A DNA stretch of 56,710 nucleotides from a virus. Position 1 is the stretch's first letter, and each line of letters begins with the position of its first letter. Under the pieces are notes generated by a model. That model made no database searches. It was not told the DNA's origin and was given only the letters and a program-made list of their open reading frames with translations. The DNA is taken from positions 1 through 56,710 of the IMG/VR virus record IMGVR_UViG_3300009168_000049; one strand, written 5' to 3'. Below are positions 457 to 56,531 of this stretch, in pieces. The position numbers and the translations under genes were made by a program.

Positions 457-686
457 CCGATGTGCACCAGAAGATGGTGGATCGTATCATGTTCGATGAG
501 GCGATCCGCCTCGGTGATGACGCCGCTCGCCGCGCCGACCGCTATCGCGAGATGAGCGTGCTGGCCATCGATGCCATCGAGGGGGCGCTGCTCGCGCTCA
601 AAAGCGGCCGCAGCCAGCAGGCGCGTGAACGTCTGGAGGCCGCCGTGAAACAGATTACGGTGCACACGGCGCGGCTGGTGAAATGA
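453..686 (+). CDS. Small helical protein, unknown function
   Basis: A 77-residue, mostly helical charged protein with no recognised family. I chose ATG 453 over ATG 444. GGAG at 440-443 is well spaced for 453 but abuts 444, and 453 gives the ATGA overlap with the previous stop. It overlaps the methyltransferase gene downstream by four bases, so the two are probably co-translated. Confidence 0.75.
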   Translation: MTDVHQKMVDRIMFDEAIRLGDDAARRADRYREMSVLAIDAIEGALLALKSGRSQQARERLEAAVKQITVHTARLVK

Positions 687-1270
687 GCACCACCGATAAA
701 CAGCAGCGGCGGCAAGAGCGTGAGCTCGCACTGGCCAAGAAGATCGTGGCCCTGCCGACCAAGCACTACGGCGTTCTGTATGCGGACCCACCCTGGCGCT
801 TCGAGCCGTACTCGCGCCAGACCGGAATGGATCGCGCGGCGGACAATCACTACCCGACGATGACCACCCAGGACATCATGCTGCTGCGCGTGCCGGCCGC
901 CAAGGACTGCGTGCTATTCCTCTGGGCCACCGCACCGATGCTGCCGGCCGCGCTCGCCGTGATGGCGGCATGGGGTTTCACCTACAAGAGCCACTGGATC
1001 TGGAATAAGGATCGTGTCGGCACCGGCTACTGGGCGCGCAACAAGCACGAGCTGCTGCTGATCGGCACTCGCGGCGAGATTCCAGCACTGGCTCCGGGCA
1101 CCCAGCCGCCGTCGGTGCTCAACTACCCAGCCATTCGCCACAGCGCCAAGCCGCCCGAGTTCCGGGCACTGATCGAAAAGTTTTACCCAAACCTACCCAA
1201 ACTCGAGTTGTTCGCGCGTGGCGAGGCACCGGCAGGGTGGGACTTTTTTGGTAACGAGGCAGTGCCATGA
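683..1270 (+). CDS. MT-A70 family adenine-N6 DNA methyltransferase
   Basis: A 195-residue protein. The catalytic DPPW motif lies near residue 36 (YADPPWRF). It is followed by the family's LFLWAT-type strand, a hydrophobic WGFTYKSHWIWNK segment, RNKHELLLIGTRG, and the late HSAKPPEF motif. This order is typical of phage MT-A70 enzymes, which transfer a methyl group from S-adenosylmethionine to adenine N6. Here it probably modifies phage DNA against host restriction or times phage functions. No cognate nuclease of restriction type is adjacent, so an orphan methylase is likeliest. It is linked by four-base overlaps to genes on both sides. Confidence 0.9.
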   Translation: MSTTDKQQRRQERELALAKKIVALPTKHYGVLYADPPWRFEPYSRQTGMDRAADNHYPTMTTQDIMLLRVPAAKDCVLFLWATAPMLPAALAVMAAWGFTYKSHWIWNKDRVGTGYWARNKHELLLIGTRGEIPALAPGTQPPSVLNYPAIRHSAKPPEFRALIEKFYPNLPKLELFARGEAPAGWDFFGNEAVP

Positions 1271-1797
1271 CGTGGCAAACCTGTATTGATTTTCCCGGCT
1301 ACGAAGTGTCGCGTGATGGACAGGTCCGTCGCGTAGTTCATGTGTCTCACGCAAGTGTGCCGCCGGGAATCTTAAAAGCTGCTGTCGACAAGGATCACGG
1401 TTATCCGTACTTGAAGCTGCGTGACAAGGATGGCGTGGTGCGTAAGGTGTATATCCATCGTCTAATTGGAAAAGCGTTTCACAATTTGACGGATGATAGC
1501 CATATCGATCATCGCTGGCATGATCCTGCTGATCACACCAGCATTCGTGTAGCGACTCACACGCAGAACATGCGTAACGCCAGAGGCTGGCGCAACAGTA
1601 GCTCGCGGTTCAAAGGTGTTTCGTGGCTTGCGGCAAAACGTAAGTGGTACGCTTGTATCGAACTCGACGGTCGTACCAAGAGTCTTGGCCGGTACGAATC
1701 AGAACAGGACGCAGCACGAGCCTACGACCGTGCGGCGCTAGCTGCGTGGGGTGAGTACGCTTACCTCAATTTCCCGGCTGAGGCGGAAGCGACATGA
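1267..1797 (+). CDS. HNH endonuclease with NUMOD4-like start and AP2 DNA-binding domain
   Basis: A 176-residue protein. The N-terminus (FPGYEVSRDGQVRR) is NUMOD4-like. An HNH core follows (IHRLIGKAFH then HIDHRWHDPADHTSIRVA), and the C-terminal 60 residues (FKGVSWLAAKRKWYACIEL, then GRYESEQDAARAYDRAAL) form an AP2/ERF-type DNA-binding domain ending in YLNFP. This is the standard architecture of phage free-standing homing endonucleases. It sits between the methyltransferase and small hypothetical genes with only four-base overlaps, so it appears fully integrated into the operon. It is probably mobile between related phages. Confidence 0.88.
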   Translation: MTWQTCIDFPGYEVSRDGQVRRVVHVSHASVPPGILKAAVDKDHGYPYLKLRDKDGVVRKVYIHRLIGKAFHNLTDDSHIDHRWHDPADHTSIRVATHTQNMRNARGWRNSSSRFKGVSWLAAKRKWYACIELDGRTKSLGRYESEQDAARAYDRAALAAWGEYAYLNFPAEAEAT

Positions 1798-16995: not shown

Positions 16996-17264
16996 AAACC
17001 AAGAAGATGGCGATTCGGCTGGCGCTGCGCCACGAGGGTCACTTCTGGAACGCCTACATGGCGCAGCGTGATACCATGGACAATGCCAAGCTGATCGGCT
17101 CGGTGGTCATCGGCGCGGTCAATCGCGATCCCGTGCTGAAACAAGACTTCATGGATCTGATGAAGCGGGTGATGGCGCAAGCCATCGTCGAGGTGACCGG
17201 CCAGGAGCCGGACACTTGGGAAACCGGCCAGGCGCCAGAGATCGAACAGCCGGGGCATTCTTAA
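16992..17264 (+). CDS. Hypothetical protein, 90 residues
   Basis: Starts MKTKKMAIRLALRHEGHFWN. Helical with a Pro/Glu-rich tail. Unrecognised. Immediately upstream of the vWA gene. Confidence 0.75.
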   Translation: MKTKKMAIRLALRHEGHFWNAYMAQRDTMDNAKLIGSVVIGAVNRDPVLKQDFMDLMKRVMAQAIVEVTGQEPDTWETGQAPEIEQPGHS

Positions 17265-17284
17265 AATCCAACAGGAGACGTACC

Positions 17285-17899
17285 ATGCAACACGATTTCA
17301 TTCTGCTCGACCGCTCCGGCTCGATGCAAGACAAGTGGGACGAGTCGCTCTCGTCGATCAACGCCTACGTCAAGAAACTGGCCGACGACAATGTCGATAC
17401 CGGCGTGACCTTGGCGACGTTCGATTATCACGATGGCTTCAAGTTCGATGTGATCCGCGACCGGATCATTCCGAAGACCTGGCACACGGTGACCGACAAA
17501 GACGCCACGCCGCGCGGCATGACGCCGTTGAATGACGCCACCGGGCGCATCGTATCGCTGGCCGAGGCCGGCAACTACGACAAGGTCGCGATCATCATCA
17601 TGACCGACGGGCTGGAAAATCACAGCCGTGAAATGACCGTCGATCAGGCCAAAGCAGCACTCGACCGCTGCCGCGCCAAGAATTGGCAGGTGATCTTCCT
17701 CGGCGCCAACTTCGACAACGCCCAGCAGGCCGCCAGTTATGGCAACGCTGCGCACGCCACGGTGCAGGTGGCCAAGGCCAACCTCGCCGGCACGATGCAT
17801 CAAGCTGCGAATATGCGCGCGGCTTATGCTTCGGTCGGAGCGCCGATGGCCTTCACCGACGAGGAGAAGAAGAAAGCCGCAGCCGATCCGTTGGTCTGA
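17285..17899 (+). CDS. von Willebrand factor A domain protein
   Basis: A 204-residue, essentially single-domain vWA protein. The MIDAS residues are visible: DRSGSM at residues 8-13, the Thr of RGMTPLNDATG, and the Asp of IIIMTDGLENH. It has no signal peptide, so it is cytoplasmic. Family members bind metal-dependent partner surfaces and often work with a MoxR-type ATPase; none is seen here. AGGAGA precedes ATG 17285. The upstream open frame to 17216 lies inside the previous gene. Confidence 0.85.
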   Translation: MQHDFILLDRSGSMQDKWDESLSSINAYVKKLADDNVDTGVTLATFDYHDGFKFDVIRDRIIPKTWHTVTDKDATPRGMTPLNDATGRIVSLAEAGNYDKVAIIIMTDGLENHSREMTVDQAKAALDRCRAKNWQVIFLGANFDNAQQAASYGNAAHATVQVAKANLAGTMHQAANMRAAYASVGAPMAFTDEEKKKAAADPLV

Positions 17900-20619: not shown

Positions 20620-20647
20620 TTGCCTGTTCACAAAATAGTGGTATCAT
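20620..20647 (+). promoter_or_regulatory. Sigma70-like promoter for the surface-protein genes
   Basis: TTGCCT (20620-20625), a 16-base spacer and TATCAT (20642-20647), in an AT-rich pocket of the 123-base gap before 20724. It would give the first PEP-CTERM-like gene its own transcript with a leader of about 70 bases. Confidence 0.5.
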
Positions 20648-20723: not shown

Positions 20724-21458
20724 ATGCGACGCTTTCTTGCGGCGGCCGCCATTCTCGGCGCCCTGTCCGCTCCTGCCTACGCCGTTACGGTCAATGTCGG
20801 TGACGTCGGCCTTAGTGGTACCACCCAGATCCAGGGCTATGCCGACGTTGGTGGTGTTGCTGTCCCGATCTCGGGCCTGACTGGAACGCTGTATCTCCAG
20901 TACGATGGCGCTACGCTCAACGCCAATGGCACCCAGACGTGGAATTTCGATTACACCGTCACCAATACCTCAAGCGGCAACACGACGATGTCGTCGATCA
21001 CCTCGTTCGGATTGAACACGACCCCGAACGTGGCCGGTGCCAATAGCACCGGACTATACGATCTGGCGCTGCTCAATCCGCAGTTCCCGAACGTCGCTGG
21101 CGCCAACGTCATCGAAATGTGCTTCTCGGCGGGCCAGAACAGCTGCAACGCGAACGGCAATACTCTGACGCCCGGCCAGTCTACGAGCGGTGAATTCAAC
21201 CTGATCTTTGGCTCGGCTCTAACGAGCATCTCGCTCGACGACGCTTACTTCCGCTTCCAGAACATCGACTCAACAGTGCCCTACCTCAACGGCGGCTCTG
21301 GAGTCGGCTTCGATGTTGGCGGCGTCTGCCCCGGCTGCACCCCGACCCCGCAGGCGGTTCCCGGTCCCATCGTGGGTGCCGGCCTGCCTGGCCTGATCGT
21401 CGGTTGCCTGACCCTGATGGGTCTGGCGCGCCGCCGTCGCAAGGCAGCGGTGGCTTAA
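20724..21458 (+). CDS. Exosortase-type (PEP-CTERM-like) secreted protein, cistern-like
   Basis: A 244-residue protein. The signal peptide is at residues 1-21 (MRRFLAAAAILGALSAPAYA, cleavage near AYA). A Gly/Thr/Asn-rich beta-type ectodomain follows, with a Cys pair near residues 133/140 and CPGC near residue 203. The C-terminal sorting module is VPGPIVGAGLPGL, a hydrophobic helix (IVGCLTLMGLA) and RRRRK. This is the tripartite exosortase/PEP-CTERM arrangement in the variant I know from Bradyrhizobium-type bacteria. GFDVGGVCPGC recalls the 'cistern' subgroup. GGAGG precedes the ATG. The protein would be displayed at or released from the host surface, which is odd cargo for a phage. Confidence 0.85.
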   Translation: MRRFLAAAAILGALSAPAYAVTVNVGDVGLSGTTQIQGYADVGGVAVPISGLTGTLYLQYDGATLNANGTQTWNFDYTVTNTSSGNTTMSSITSFGLNTTPNVAGANSTGLYDLALLNPQFPNVAGANVIEMCFSAGQNSCNANGNTLTPGQSTSGEFNLIFGSALTSISLDDAYFRFQNIDSTVPYLNGGSGVGFDVGGVCPGCTPTPQAVPGPIVGAGLPGLIVGCLTLMGLARRRRKAAVA

Positions 21459-21463
21459 CTAAA

Positions 21464-21492
21464 AACCCCGTGGCGGAAACCGCCACGGGGTT
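21464..21492 (-). terminator. Intrinsic terminator, stronger on the minus strand
   Basis: AACCCCGTGGCGG (21464-21476) pairs with CCGCCACGGGGTT (21480-21492) around an AAA loop: 13 perfect base pairs. On the minus strand it is followed by TTTTTAGTT. On the plus strand only TT then CTAG follows. It lies between the two surface-protein genes and could also weakly terminate the first one. Confidence 0.75.
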
Positions 21493-21534
21493 CTAGTGTT
21501 GCCCTAGCTCAAGATCTTTACAGGGAAGGCTCAC

Positions 21535-22092
21535 ATGAAAAAGCTTCTGCTCGCGACCGCTGCGTTGTTCGCCATGACGGTGGCATCGCAGGCGGCCATG
21601 TTCAACATCCTGACTCCCGATCCAACCAGCCAACAGGGCAATTTCTCTCTTGCTCCCGGCGCTGGCCCCTTTGAGGATCAGGTCACCTTCACGATCACCC
21701 AAGCGTCCACATTCACCATCGCCAACGCGACCAACACCTACGCATCTCCTCAAGATCAAATCACCGGCTGGAATGCCGCGATCTGGGATGCGGGTCTCGA
21801 TCAGATCGTCAACAACGCGGATGACAACTTGCTGTTCGGTCCGCAGGCCGCGTCGGCCTGCATCATCACGCCGAACTGCCAGATCGTCGGCGGTTCTGGC
21901 TTCCTGAACGGTCCCGGCATCTTCTACGCCGAGTTCCAGGGTACCGGCAGTGGCACCAGCGGCTACAGCGGCAACATCTCCGTCGCCGCCGCCCCCGTTC
22001 CCGGTCCGATTGTCGGCGCAGGCCTTCCCGGTTTGATCGTCGGTGCGCTCGCCTTCCTCGGATGGCGGCGTCGGCGTCAGGCGGCAGCCTAA
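21535..22092 (+). CDS. Exosortase-type (PEP-CTERM-like) secreted protein
   Basis: A 185-residue protein. Signal peptide at residues 1-20 (MKKLLLATAALFAMTVASQA), a beta-rich ectodomain with one Cys pair (ACIITPNCQIV), then VPGPIVGAGLPGL, a hydrophobic helix (IVGALAFLGW) and RRRRQ. The sorting module is identical in sequence to that of the preceding protein through the motif, while the ectodomains are not obviously related. This suggests they are sorted by the same host machinery but do different things. GGGAAGG precedes the ATG. Confidence 0.85.
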   Translation: MKKLLLATAALFAMTVASQAAMFNILTPDPTSQQGNFSLAPGAGPFEDQVTFTITQASTFTIANATNTYASPQDQITGWNAAIWDAGLDQIVNNADDNLLFGPQAASACIITPNCQIVGGSGFLNGPGIFYAEFQGTGSGTSGYSGNISVAAAPVPGPIVGAGLPGLIVGALAFLGWRRRRQAAA

Positions 22093-22115
22093 GCGACAAG
22101 CACAGCGGCCCGGCC

Positions 22116-22454
22116 GTGGACCCTCTCAGGTTCAAGGCTCGGGCCGCAGCTTTGGCCGTCTTCAAGCTGTACCGCTCTGGGTGCAACCTTAATCAAATTG
22201 CCGAACGGCGCGGTATCTCCAGGCAACACGCCTGGAAGCTGGCCACAGAGGGTCGTGAGCTTGTCCACGGGATTGAAAGCGGCGATCCCAGCTGGGAGCT
22301 AAGCCCACGTAGCCGCAATGCGCTGCTGATGTGGGGCGAGGGAACGACTCCAGAGGCGGTGGCCAAGATCGATCTCACGCGCGTTCCCAACATCGGCAGC
22401 AAAAGCCGTGAAGAGATTCTCGATTGGCTGGCCCGGCATGCGCCGGCTGTATGA
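22116..22454 (+). CDS. HTH protein with RNA-polymerase alpha-CTD-like domain
   Basis: About 112 residues from GTG 22116; ATG 22062, inside the previous gene, is an alternative, and neither has a clear ribosome site. The N-terminal part (FKLYRSGCNLNQIAERRGIS then RQHAWKLA) is a helix-turn-helix. The C-terminal part (LSPRSRNALLMWGEGTTPEA, then LTRVPNIGSKSREEILDWLA) matches the alpha-CTD pattern: a helix after LS-R, a short 'G-T-P/I' turn, and the HhH-like 'PNIG-KS--EI' motif. That domain binds AT-rich UP elements and sigma or activators. It may retarget host RNA polymerase. The family call is by eye. Confidence 0.7.
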   Translation: MDPLRFKARAAALAVFKLYRSGCNLNQIAERRGISRQHAWKLATEGRELVHGIESGDPSWELSPRSRNALLMWGEGTTPEAVAKIDLTRVPNIGSKSREEILDWLARHAPAV

Positions 22455-22656
22455 TCGCTTCGAAGATTGGGCCAATAACCCGCTGCTCCCGCCGCGCCCC
22501 GGGCGCTCCTTGAACCCGCGCCGCATCGACGTCCTGATCGCCCTCTTCGGCGCAATCTGCGTCGGGTATTACTGGTGGATGGAAGGCCTCCTGGGCGCTG
22601 CCAAAGGGGCGCTGGCGTACGCATTCGTCACGATGGTGGCGTTGTGGCTCCTCTGA
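22438..22656 (+). CDS. Small membrane protein, possible holin-like
   Basis: A 72-residue protein. Basic N-terminal region, then two hydrophobic segments (IDVLIALFGAICVGYYWWM and GALAYAFVTMVALWLL) to the very end. A holin-like function is conceivable because lysis genes lie just beyond on the other strand, but nothing proves it. Last plus-strand gene before the convergence point. Confidence 0.65.
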   Translation: MRRLYDRFEDWANNPLLPPRPGRSLNPRRIDVLIALFGAICVGYYWWMEGLLGAAKGALAYAFVTMVALWLL

Positions 22657-22660
22657 CGCA

Positions 22661-22690
22661 AAAACGCCCGGAGGAGGGCCTCCGGGCGTT
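22661..22690 (-). terminator. Intrinsic terminator at the convergence point
   Basis: AACGCCCGGAGG (22663-22674) pairs perfectly with CCTCCGGGCGTT (22679-22690) around an AGGG loop. On the minus strand TTTTTG follows, at the natural end of the leftward late transcripts. On the plus strand TT then CTGCC follows, five bases after the last rightward gene. It probably acts in both directions, better leftward. Confidence 0.8.
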
Positions 22691-23069: not shown

Positions 23070-23600
23070 CTACGCCTTGGGCTGTGCCGTTGGCGGCAGT
23101 GGCTGTCCGGCTGTCGGAGGCACCGGCTGACCCGATGCGTGCGGCGGCATGCCACCACCGGGTAGGCCCTGATTGGGCTGATCGGGATTGACCGGAATGG
23201 TCGGCACGTTCGGCTGCCCGGGAGGCTGCGGCTTCTCCGGCACCGCCGGCGTGATCGAGACCCATTCGAAGCCTTTGCCGGGGATGTACGCGACCACCCA
23301 GAGACCTGCACCAGGCGATGAGCCAGGCGCAGGCGGCTTGGTGCCAGCCGGCGGCATGTGGATCGGATGCGAGGGCAGGCCGCCGCCGCCGGGGAGGCCC
23401 TGTGAGGGATGTCCGCCTTGACCCGGCAGGCCCTGCGAGGGGTGTCCAAAGCCGGGAAGACCCTGATCGGGGTGACCAAAGCCAGGAAGACCCTGACCGG
23501 GATGCGGCAATCCGCCGATGCCGCCGATGTTGCCGAAGCCGGGATCAATCGGGCCGCCGCCAACTTCTTGAATCACCAAACATAAAGCAAGTTTTGCCAT
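23070..23600 (-). CDS. Gly/Pro-rich low-complexity protein
   Basis: A 176-residue protein with tandem imperfect repeats of about 9-12 residues near positions 30-76 (GLPGFGHPDQ, GLPGFGHPSQ, GLPGQGGHPSQ). A short folded-looking section follows (LWVVAYIPGKGFEWVSITPA), then a Pro/Gln-rich C-terminus. No signal peptide is clear. AGGAGG precedes the ATG. Function unknown; the repeats suggest an extended spacer. Confidence 0.72.
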   Translation of the reverse strand: MAKLALCLVIQEVGGGPIDPGFGNIGGIGGLPHPGQGLPGFGHPDQGLPGFGHPSQGLPGQGGHPSQGLPGGGGLPSHPIHMPPAGTKPPAPGSSPGAGLWVVAYIPGKGFEWVSITPAVPEKPQPPGQPNVPTIPVNPDQPNQGLPGGGMPPHASGQPVPPTAGQPLPPTAQPKA

Positions 23601-55019: not shown

Positions 55020-55049
55020 AACCTACAATCGCTTGTTACGCTTCGTCAA
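55020..55049 (-). promoter_or_regulatory. Possible leftward late promoter
   Basis: On the minus strand TTGACG (complement of 55044-55049), an 18-base spacer and TAGGTT (complement of 55020-55025), about 105 bases before the small-terminase start. The -10 is poor, so this may need an activator or may be chance. The 131-base gap 54915-55045 holds no gene. Confidence 0.3.
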
Positions 55050-55546
55050 GCATGCACCATCTTGGCGCTGTTGACCCGGGCTCTCGCGCCGCCGAACAGC
55101 GGTGTGATCACATTGACCATGCCGGCGGTGTCGGCATCGGAGGCGAGCACCGAGCGCAAGGTGGCGAGCACCCCATAGCTGAAGGTGACGGCGTCGCCCT
55201 TGTGCAGGATTTCATCGAACAAGCCATTGATTTCGGCCTGTTTTACCGCCTCGATGGCCTTGCAGGGGGCACGCCATGGCCGGCCGTTCTCATCGGCGAG
55301 AAGCGTATTGTGGCGACAGATGCCACGGGCGAGACGGATCGAGGGGTGATGCGCATCGGCGTAGCGCACGAACAGATAGCGCGGGAACAGCGGATAGTGC
55401 CGCATGACGAATTTGCCGGGACGGAGGTGATGGCGCTTCTTGAGCTGGGGCAAATACGAGTCGAAACCGAACCGTTGCAGTTCGGTGTGAGCGAGATATT
55501 CGGAGGCCGACTCGGTGATCAACGCTGCGTAGTCGGATCGCGCCAT
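55046..55546 (-). CDS. NusG/RfaH-like transcription antiterminator
   Basis: A 166-residue protein. The NGN domain is seen in YAALITESASEYLAHTELQR, GFDSYLPQLKKR and HYPLFPRYLFVRYAD (the classical 'LFPRYLF' strand). A KOW-like C-terminal section begins at KGDAVTFSYGVLATLRSVLA. It binds RNA polymerase clamp helices and suppresses pausing/termination. Lying directly upstream of terS in the same direction, it probably helps polymerase through the 30-kb late operon. AAGGGG precedes the ATG. Confidence 0.82.
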   Translation of the reverse strand: MARSDYAALITESASEYLAHTELQRFGFDSYLPQLKKRHHLRPGKFVMRHYPLFPRYLFVRYADAHHPSIRLARGICRHNTLLADENGRPWRAPCKAIEAVKQAEINGLFDEILHKGDAVTFSYGVLATLRSVLASDADTAGMVNVITPLFGGARARVNSAKMVHA

Positions 55547-56013: not shown

Positions 56014-56139
56014 ATGTTGAAGCTGATTGCGGCATGCGCACTCGCGCTGTTTACGTTCACGATGGCGGCTGAAGCGAAGAAGTGCACGGATTGGTGCACC
56101 AACAAAAGCACCGGCCAGAAATTCCGGATCCGCCGCTAA
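56014..56139 (+). CDS. Tiny secreted protein, 41 residues
   Basis: MLKLIAACALALFTFTMAAE is a signal peptide (cleavage near AEA). The mature part is about 20 residues, basic, with two Cys (KKCTDWCTNKSTGQKFRIRR). First gene of the rightward promoter; its stop overlaps the nuclease start (TAATG). Unrecognised; comparable in style to the secreted protein at 13874. Confidence 0.75.
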   Translation: MLKLIAACALALFTFTMAAEAKKCTDWCTNKSTGQKFRIRR

Positions 56140-56531
56140 TGCTGAAGCGGTTTGTGCTGGCACTCCTGCTGGCCATCGCCGGCCCGCTGTCGGCCGCCGA
56201 ACTTCGAGTCATCGACGGCGACACCGTGGTCATCGACGGCGTGAAGATCCGCATCGAGCGGATCGACACGCCGGAGACCTGGCGGGCGCGCTGCGCCGCC
56301 GAGCTCGCGCTGGGCCAGAAGGCCAAGGCGCGGTTGAGCGAACTGCTCGCCGGTCGTGATATCAGCTATGAGGGGAAGAAGCTGGACCGTTGGGGGCGCA
56401 CGTTGGGAACGGTGTATGCGGATGGCGAGGATGTTGGGGAGATATTGATCGCCGAAGGGCTGGCGGTGCGCTGGCGGCGCGGACCCAAGGCGAAGGCCGA
56501 GCGGATGGCGAAGTGGTGTCCGTCAGGATGA
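56139..56531 (+). CDS. Secreted thermonuclease (SNase family)
   Basis: A 130-residue protein. Signal peptide MLKRFVLALLLAIAGPLSAA, then the SNase core: VIDGDTVVIDGVKIRIERID with TPET (metal Asp, catalytic Arg and Glu), and DRWGRTLGTVYADGEDVGEI (second Arg). About the minimal length for a functional SNase domain. It would degrade nucleic acid in the periplasm or outside. ATG 56139 overlaps the preceding stop; an open frame to 56082 lies inside the other gene and would break the signal peptide. Confidence 0.85.
   Translation: MLKRFVLALLLAIAGPLSAAELRVIDGDTVVIDGVKIRIERIDTPETWRARCAAELALGQKAKARLSELLAGRDISYEGKKLDRWGRTLGTVYADGEDVGEILIAEGLAVRWRRGPKAKAERMAKWCPSG

Follow-up and report, generated by a model that had tools for sequence, protein, structure and literature searches.

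Exosortase cargo described so far is chromosomal and is linked to exopolysaccharide and biofilm. In the PEP-CTERM/EpsH model, such cargo is exported by Sec, recognized at the membrane face, cleaved, and released at the surface (Haft et al. 2006, PMC1569441). The two phage genes described below, A and B, resemble that system in having a signal peptide, diverse ectodomains, a short Pro-containing motif, a transmembrane helix, and a basic cluster; as with EpsH, there is a Cys/Arg/His enzyme in an exopolysaccharide (EPS) locus, and tag and enzyme were found by co-occurrence. They differ in that the cargo is phage-borne and the motif is PGPxxGAGLPG, not PEP, and in that the enzyme gives no match to PF09721 and barely reaches TIGR04178. 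The GlyGly-CTERM/rhombosortase and MYXO-CTERM/myxosortase systems (PMC3237569, PMC11980579) likewise pair a tripartite C-terminal tag with an intramembrane enzyme; their enzymes and motifs are different ones, and only sub-cutoff matches to them were obtained here. A parallel in concept is Llp of phage T5 (PMC9586334), a phage protein that a host sorting route puts on the host surface; Llp, however, is sorted as a lipoprotein and acts by blocking a receptor that is known, whereas the likeness of A and B to it is one of concept.

In the literature searched, we found no description of phage-borne PEP-CTERM cargo, and a Microcystis paper that names both phage and cargo concerns host genes. Exosortase sorting as such is not new. 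Within the literature and databases searched, however, there appears to be no account of many phages using it with exchanged tags, nor of GAGLPG and the divergent enzyme that goes with this tag.

Two tagged genes in a myovirus genome

The window, by which we mean the whole stretch of DNA analyzed (56.7 kb), is an IMG/VR virus record classed as linear. Its minus strand encodes terminase, portal, major head protein, tail sheath, baseplate hub, fibre, and endolysin, and the major head protein is 47-62% identical to those of the Agrobacterium phages Milano, OLIVR4, and 7-7-1 and of two Synechococcus phages, which are myoviruses; the window phage is a myovirus. Four plus-strand genes, led by A and B, immediately precede the minus-strand block that starts at the lysis end. 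The features of the pair are as follows.

20620..20647, plus strand: promoter-like site with extended -10 upstream of A, TTGCCT-16-TATCAT with TG; weak, near chance frequency
20724..21458, plus strand: gene A, a 244-aa cistern-family (NF033947) exosortase-cargo protein (ORF and 114.3 bits)
about 20724-20783, plus strand: signal peptide of A
21357..21455, plus strand: C-terminal sorting tag of A, VPGPIVGAGLPGLIVGCLTLMGLARRRRKAAVA
21464..21492, no strand assigned: 13-bp hairpin between A and B (-30.9 kcal/mol, z -6.4)
21535..22092, plus strand: gene B, a 185-aa FxDxF-like exosortase-cargo protein with a candidate PPC-like beta-sandwich ectodomain
about 21535-21594, plus strand: signal peptide of B
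21997..22089, plus strand: C-terminal sorting tag of B, VPGPIVGAGLPGLIVGALAFLGWRRRRQAAA

The original prediction described two proteins at 20724-22092 with a signal peptide and a common C-terminal module, and the ORF check places both at these coordinates on the plus strand. The N-termini are MRRFLAAAAILGALSAPAYA in A and MKKLLLATAALFAMTVASQA in B, both with AxA-type ends, as called by a heuristic, not by SignalP. Both C-termini read VPGPIVGAGLPGLIVG..RRRR, so that the module can be written VPGPIVGAGLPGL-helix-RRRR, with the motif first, the transmembrane helix second, and the basic cluster last. The 16 tag residues common to A and B are identical as protein, while 9 of the 48 underlying bases differ, all of them silently, which argues against a recent duplication; this silent-only divergence speaks for an old separation of the two tags under selection on the protein. 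The tag DNA pattern occurs twice in the window against 0 expected by chance, and a crude filter for a signal peptide, a C-terminal helix, and a basic cluster picked only A and B among the window ORFs.

The further claim that one sorting module is joined to two different ectodomains is also upheld. Protein A clearly belongs to the NCBIfam cistern PEP-CTERM family, matching nearly the whole NF033947 model (114.3 bits, cutoff 60), and differs from that family by its phage location. B itself stays below the cutoff of the FxDxF PEP-CTERM model NF038126 (23.1 bits, cutoff 50); a scan of 45 B-family proteins gave a match to NF038126 for every one (best 1e-20), and their tag class varies. Against TIGR02595, B scores 8 bits (cutoff 16), no match is listed for A, and PGP replaces PEP; with no literal PEP and a score below the cutoff, we regard the module as a variant of the tag that falls outside PEP-CTERM as strictly defined.

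Other parts of the prediction stood only partly. Both ectodomains had been called beta-rich, and an AlphaFold model of B does contain 8 strands with a core pLDDT of about 80-90; the model of A, with a pLDDT of only 36, gives no such support. A promoter of their own had been proposed for the pair, and a promoter-like site is indeed present upstream of A, but sites of that kind lie near chance frequency in the window (3 found vs 1.2 expected), and the site is a weak promoter candidate. The hairpin between A and B, which had been read as a terminator, is strong. Its T-run, however, is on the minus strand, and the terminator scan lists the hairpin on that strand only, so that a terminator for plus-strand transcription is plausible but not clear.

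The tag in host genomes and across phages

In one Bradyrhizobium genome (G061, on a 3-Mb contig), three tagged proteins lie within an EPS locus. The same locus encodes a 327-aa membrane protein with the motifs PCSSLANMS, NVTRISLMG, and HNQWGD.

G061:C2:2711393-2712376 (L167, L182): divergent exosortase gene, also in G004, G003, G043, G096, and G208

The product is a multi-pass membrane protein in which Cys234, Arg280, and His295 are invariant in four homologues, and it passes TIGR04178 by a narrow margin (23.1 bits, cutoff 23). The first five genomes with the tag gave no exosortase when searched with PF09721, with G003, G004, and G061 among the genomes without a match, and the overlap between canonical PF09721 and the tag comes to a single genome of 61. 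A canonical exosortase was rejected as the partner in these hosts because it is absent from tag-bearing genomes. Judged from its sequence and its place in the EPS locus, the host enzyme is a divergent exosortase branch that PF09721 misses. The expectation that the host should have an exosortase is thus borne out for tag-bearing Bradyrhizobium, but not in the form of a canonical EpsH-type enzyme. A 171-aa partner gene lies 3' of the enzyme gene in G061, G004, and G003, and in many other Bradyrhizobium genomes a gene for a 75-100-aa protein ending APGPIAGAGLP-helix-RRRR adjoins it.

A profile search of 266 Bradyrhizobium genomes found the enzyme in 26 and the tag in 27, with both in 25, the enzyme only in 1 (G062), and the tag only in 2 (G024 and G224); the association has a Fisher p of 1e-31, species relatedness being ignored. 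Tag gene and enzyme gene lie within 0.2-1.4 kb of each other in ten genomes, among them G365, which does not belong to the Bradyrhizobium set. The five genomes with the top enzyme scores among intact reading frames, G003, G004, G061, G096, and G208, are those with the best VPGP tags. The enzyme profile gave no match in the tag-bearing metagenome-assembled genomes (MAGs) G002, G005, and G006, which may be incomplete, may owe their tag contigs to phage DNA, or may use another enzyme. When genomes of 84,980 species were searched with VPGPxxGAG[LF]PG[LF], 17 matches were obtained; some 13 of these are genuine tags, each of which comes from a MAG. No phage-borne enzyme was found in 28 phage records of 34-87 kb or in the viral loci examined, so phages appear to supply the cargo and the host the sorter. 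From the tag only, we infer that the host of the window phage is Bradyrhizobium.

Among viruses, the DNA pattern P[GED]PxxGAG[LF]PG matches at least 120 stretches in IMG/VR. Of the 124 viral matches listed, 91 are C-terminal tags with a basic cluster, and 33 are not C-terminal tags and were left out. One recurrent frame, APGP(E/D/L)TGAGLPG(L/C)RYPP, fits the DNA pattern in L016, L043, L103, L105, L107, and others and is not a C-terminal tag. A complete scan with the narrower pattern VPGPIVGAG[LF]PG[LF] returned 40 IMG/VR contigs, half of them already among the wider-pattern matches listed, and extrapolation from this overlap puts the wider-tag total in IMG/VR probably near 170. At least 104 viral loci carry 112 tagged genes, and 7 loci have two or three. 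The motif, which the original prediction had proposed to trace in phage and Bradyrhizobium genomes, is present in both, although few bacterial genomes have it, and the notion of a trait special to one phage falls with the number of viral loci. The tag class, moreover, switches between phages. A Sec-like N-terminus is found in 94 of 110 tagged phage proteins vs 37 of 331 control genes. The genes near viral tagged genes belong to terminase, major head protein, protease, integrase, recombination, and endolysin families, and from this variety it follows that several phage lineages carry tagged genes. Tagged ectodomains with WCLD...TQLAIW occur in L057, L069, L076, L092, L099, L106, and L118 and have weak, sub-cutoff matches to thioester adhesins (TQXA/TED). 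A whole-protein search of viral contigs with A gave no match, and the pattern search gave two relatives; A, B, and four relatives have no homologues in isolated phages (INPHARED), and a DNA search found no plasmid homologues.

A search started from the B ectodomain, not the tag, reached 59 viral loci. Sorted by our own pattern rules, with four leftovers read individually, the 58 complete B-family proteins have about 26 GAG-type tags (including that of L228, which is shortened and without a basic cluster), 28 VPLPA-like, 3 PEPxxWA, and 1 other; of the 45 B-family proteins scanned, 10 match the NCBIfam model VPLPA-CTERM and 3 match PEPxxWA-CTERM. On an ectodomain tree built without signal peptide and tag, the tag classes need about 9 changes, and at least 6 GAG-class changes are forced by well supported branches. 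The invariant residues of the ectodomain are kept across tag classes. When 259 Bradyrhizobium genomes were searched with the B profile, the host proteins that matched did so in their tag region only, and host and phage ectodomains are mostly unrelated, which together indicate that the ectodomain stays with the phages while the tag changes. A natural prediction is that tag class would follow the host enzyme.

Sorting route and possible uses of the cargo

The family matches, the tag, and the phage genes on both sides agree with the claim of exosortase-sorted cargo in a phage genome, and we consider it probable that the phage supplies A and B as cargo to an exosortase of its host, with cleavage and display as predicted steps. 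Made in the infected cell, A and B would cross the inner membrane by Sec, as their signal peptides suggest, and the C-terminal helix would hold them in the membrane with RRRR in the cytoplasm. The divergent host exosortase from the exopolysaccharide locus would recognize PGPxxGAGLPG, a step to which the observed co-occurrence points, and, if the PEP-CTERM/EpsH model applies, would cut at the motif and release the proteins to the outer surface or matrix. Phages would retain their ectodomain and exchange the tag, presumably so that it suits the exosortase of the host being infected. The surface of the infected cell would be changed, for instance with a receptor masked against superinfecting phage or progeny kept off the cell and debris. 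By analogy with T5 Llp, which does this through the lipoprotein route, receptor masking or superinfection exclusion is the use that we put forward for A and B, as a tentative proposal.

More broadly, we think it rather likely that uncultured phages of several lineages share a class of host-surface cargo that combines ectodomains of their own with a host-fitted tag (GAGLPG, VPLPA, or PEPxxWA) and often a two-helix partner as a standard means of surface remodelling, and that GAGLPG is the tag of an unnamed exosortase type. If so, exosortase sorting would be a host route exploited by several phage lineages, the tags would offer a new means of linking phages known only from sequence with their hosts, and many uncharacterized phage proteins would become testable as surface-remodelling factors. 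The pair of tag and enzyme points to an exosortase branch missed by present Pfam models.

A different use of the same sorting would be in the matrix, the sorted proteins acting as adhesins or exopolysaccharide binders by which infected or lysogenic cells aggregate and stay in, or leave, the biofilm. The enzyme and host cargo do sit in an EPS locus, floc formation in Zoogloea and Aquincola needs PEP-CTERM proteins (PMC9012009, PMC9850573), and thioester-adhesin models match one group of phage ectodomains weakly. The B ectodomain, for which there is no Pfam match, aligns in structure to PPC and collagen-binding beta-sandwiches (Z about 10, rmsd 2.2-2.4, 92-97 residues), which suggests a binding role and nothing more specific, as a common fold does not establish function. 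No sign of lysogeny was seen among the window genes examined, and on balance we regard a matrix role as somewhat unlikely.

That exosortase is not involved at all, the helix and RRRR being a plain inner-membrane anchor and the motif a good stop-transfer sequence, strikes us as improbable. A hydrophobic helix with a basic cluster could anchor a protein alone, and the NCBIfam tag models PEP_CTERM and JDVT-CTERM match B below cutoff only. An anchor, however, needs no invariant PGPxxGAGLPG ahead of the helix, the presence of the motif in host proteins goes with that of one particular exosortase, and homologues bear other recognized exosortase tags. Even less probable is a decoy role, in which A and B would keep the host exosortase busy or blocked and the host surface would lose its own sorted proteins; the presence of the tag in phages with the enzyme in 0 of 28 phage records and the two or three tagged genes of some phages would fit, but conserved folded ectodomains are needless for a decoy, and the B family keeps its invariant residues across tag classes. 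A virion role, or contamination by host DNA, is very improbable. The Foldseek matches to B, which are generic beta-sandwiches (query TM at most about 0.4), do include some tail proteins among the weak ones, but A and B have Sec signal peptides, lie on the strand opposite to the structural genes, and are flanked by phage genes on both sides, which rules out a host-DNA junction; L225/L226 have a similar layout, the isolated related myoviruses Milano and Yong-L2-223 encode no protein comparable to A or B in the parts examined, and B-family members found by ectodomain nearly all have an exosortase-type tail, so that motif-less close homologues as ordinary virion proteins are likewise rejected.

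Genes accompanying the tagged genes

The putative two-helix partner mentioned above belongs to a set of overlapping genes that begins with B.

22062..22454, plus strand: HTH and RNA polymerase alpha-CTD-like protein, 130 aa, overlapping B; sub-cutoff matches
22438..22656, plus strand: small two-helix membrane protein, 72 aa, overlapping the HTH gene; its family recurs in many phages on the downstream side of tagged genes
22663..22690, no strand assigned: 12-bp hairpin closing the B, HTH, and two-helix gene set (z -4.9)

The hairpins after A and after the two-helix gene are both strong, yet have poor T-runs on the plus strand. The HTH/alpha-CTD-like gene has one homologue, in the related locus L089. 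The two-helix family is more widespread, with 20 members in the first locus set, all co-directional with the tagged gene and all downstream of it except one that overlaps. When any small two-helix gene on the same strand within 800 bp was counted, such genes were found downstream of 29 of 101 tagged genes vs upstream of 1 of 93. The family is also present 3' of a VPLPA-type member (L245).

Another recurrent neighbor, often adjoining the tagged gene, is a small secreted repeat protein (GxxIGTATxxGNxIYxRDxxGE.. YDPxGK) in L032, L047, L085, L098, L121, L215, L217, and L223. Beside the lysis end, 23070-23600 (minus strand) encodes a proline/glycine-rich repeat protein, and similar proteins occur in L006, L272, and other phages with tagged genes. 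Elsewhere in the window, the plus-strand region encodes a von Willebrand A domain protein (17216-17899, plus strand; Pfam PF00092, above cutoff). An MT-A70 methyltransferase (683-1270, plus strand) is followed by a NUMOD4/AP2 protein (1267-1797, plus strand), and a staphylococcal-nuclease-like protein is encoded at 56082-56531 (plus strand). A NusG-like protein is encoded at 55046-55546 (minus strand); Yong-L2-223, too, has a NusG gene, which adjoins its small terminase gene.
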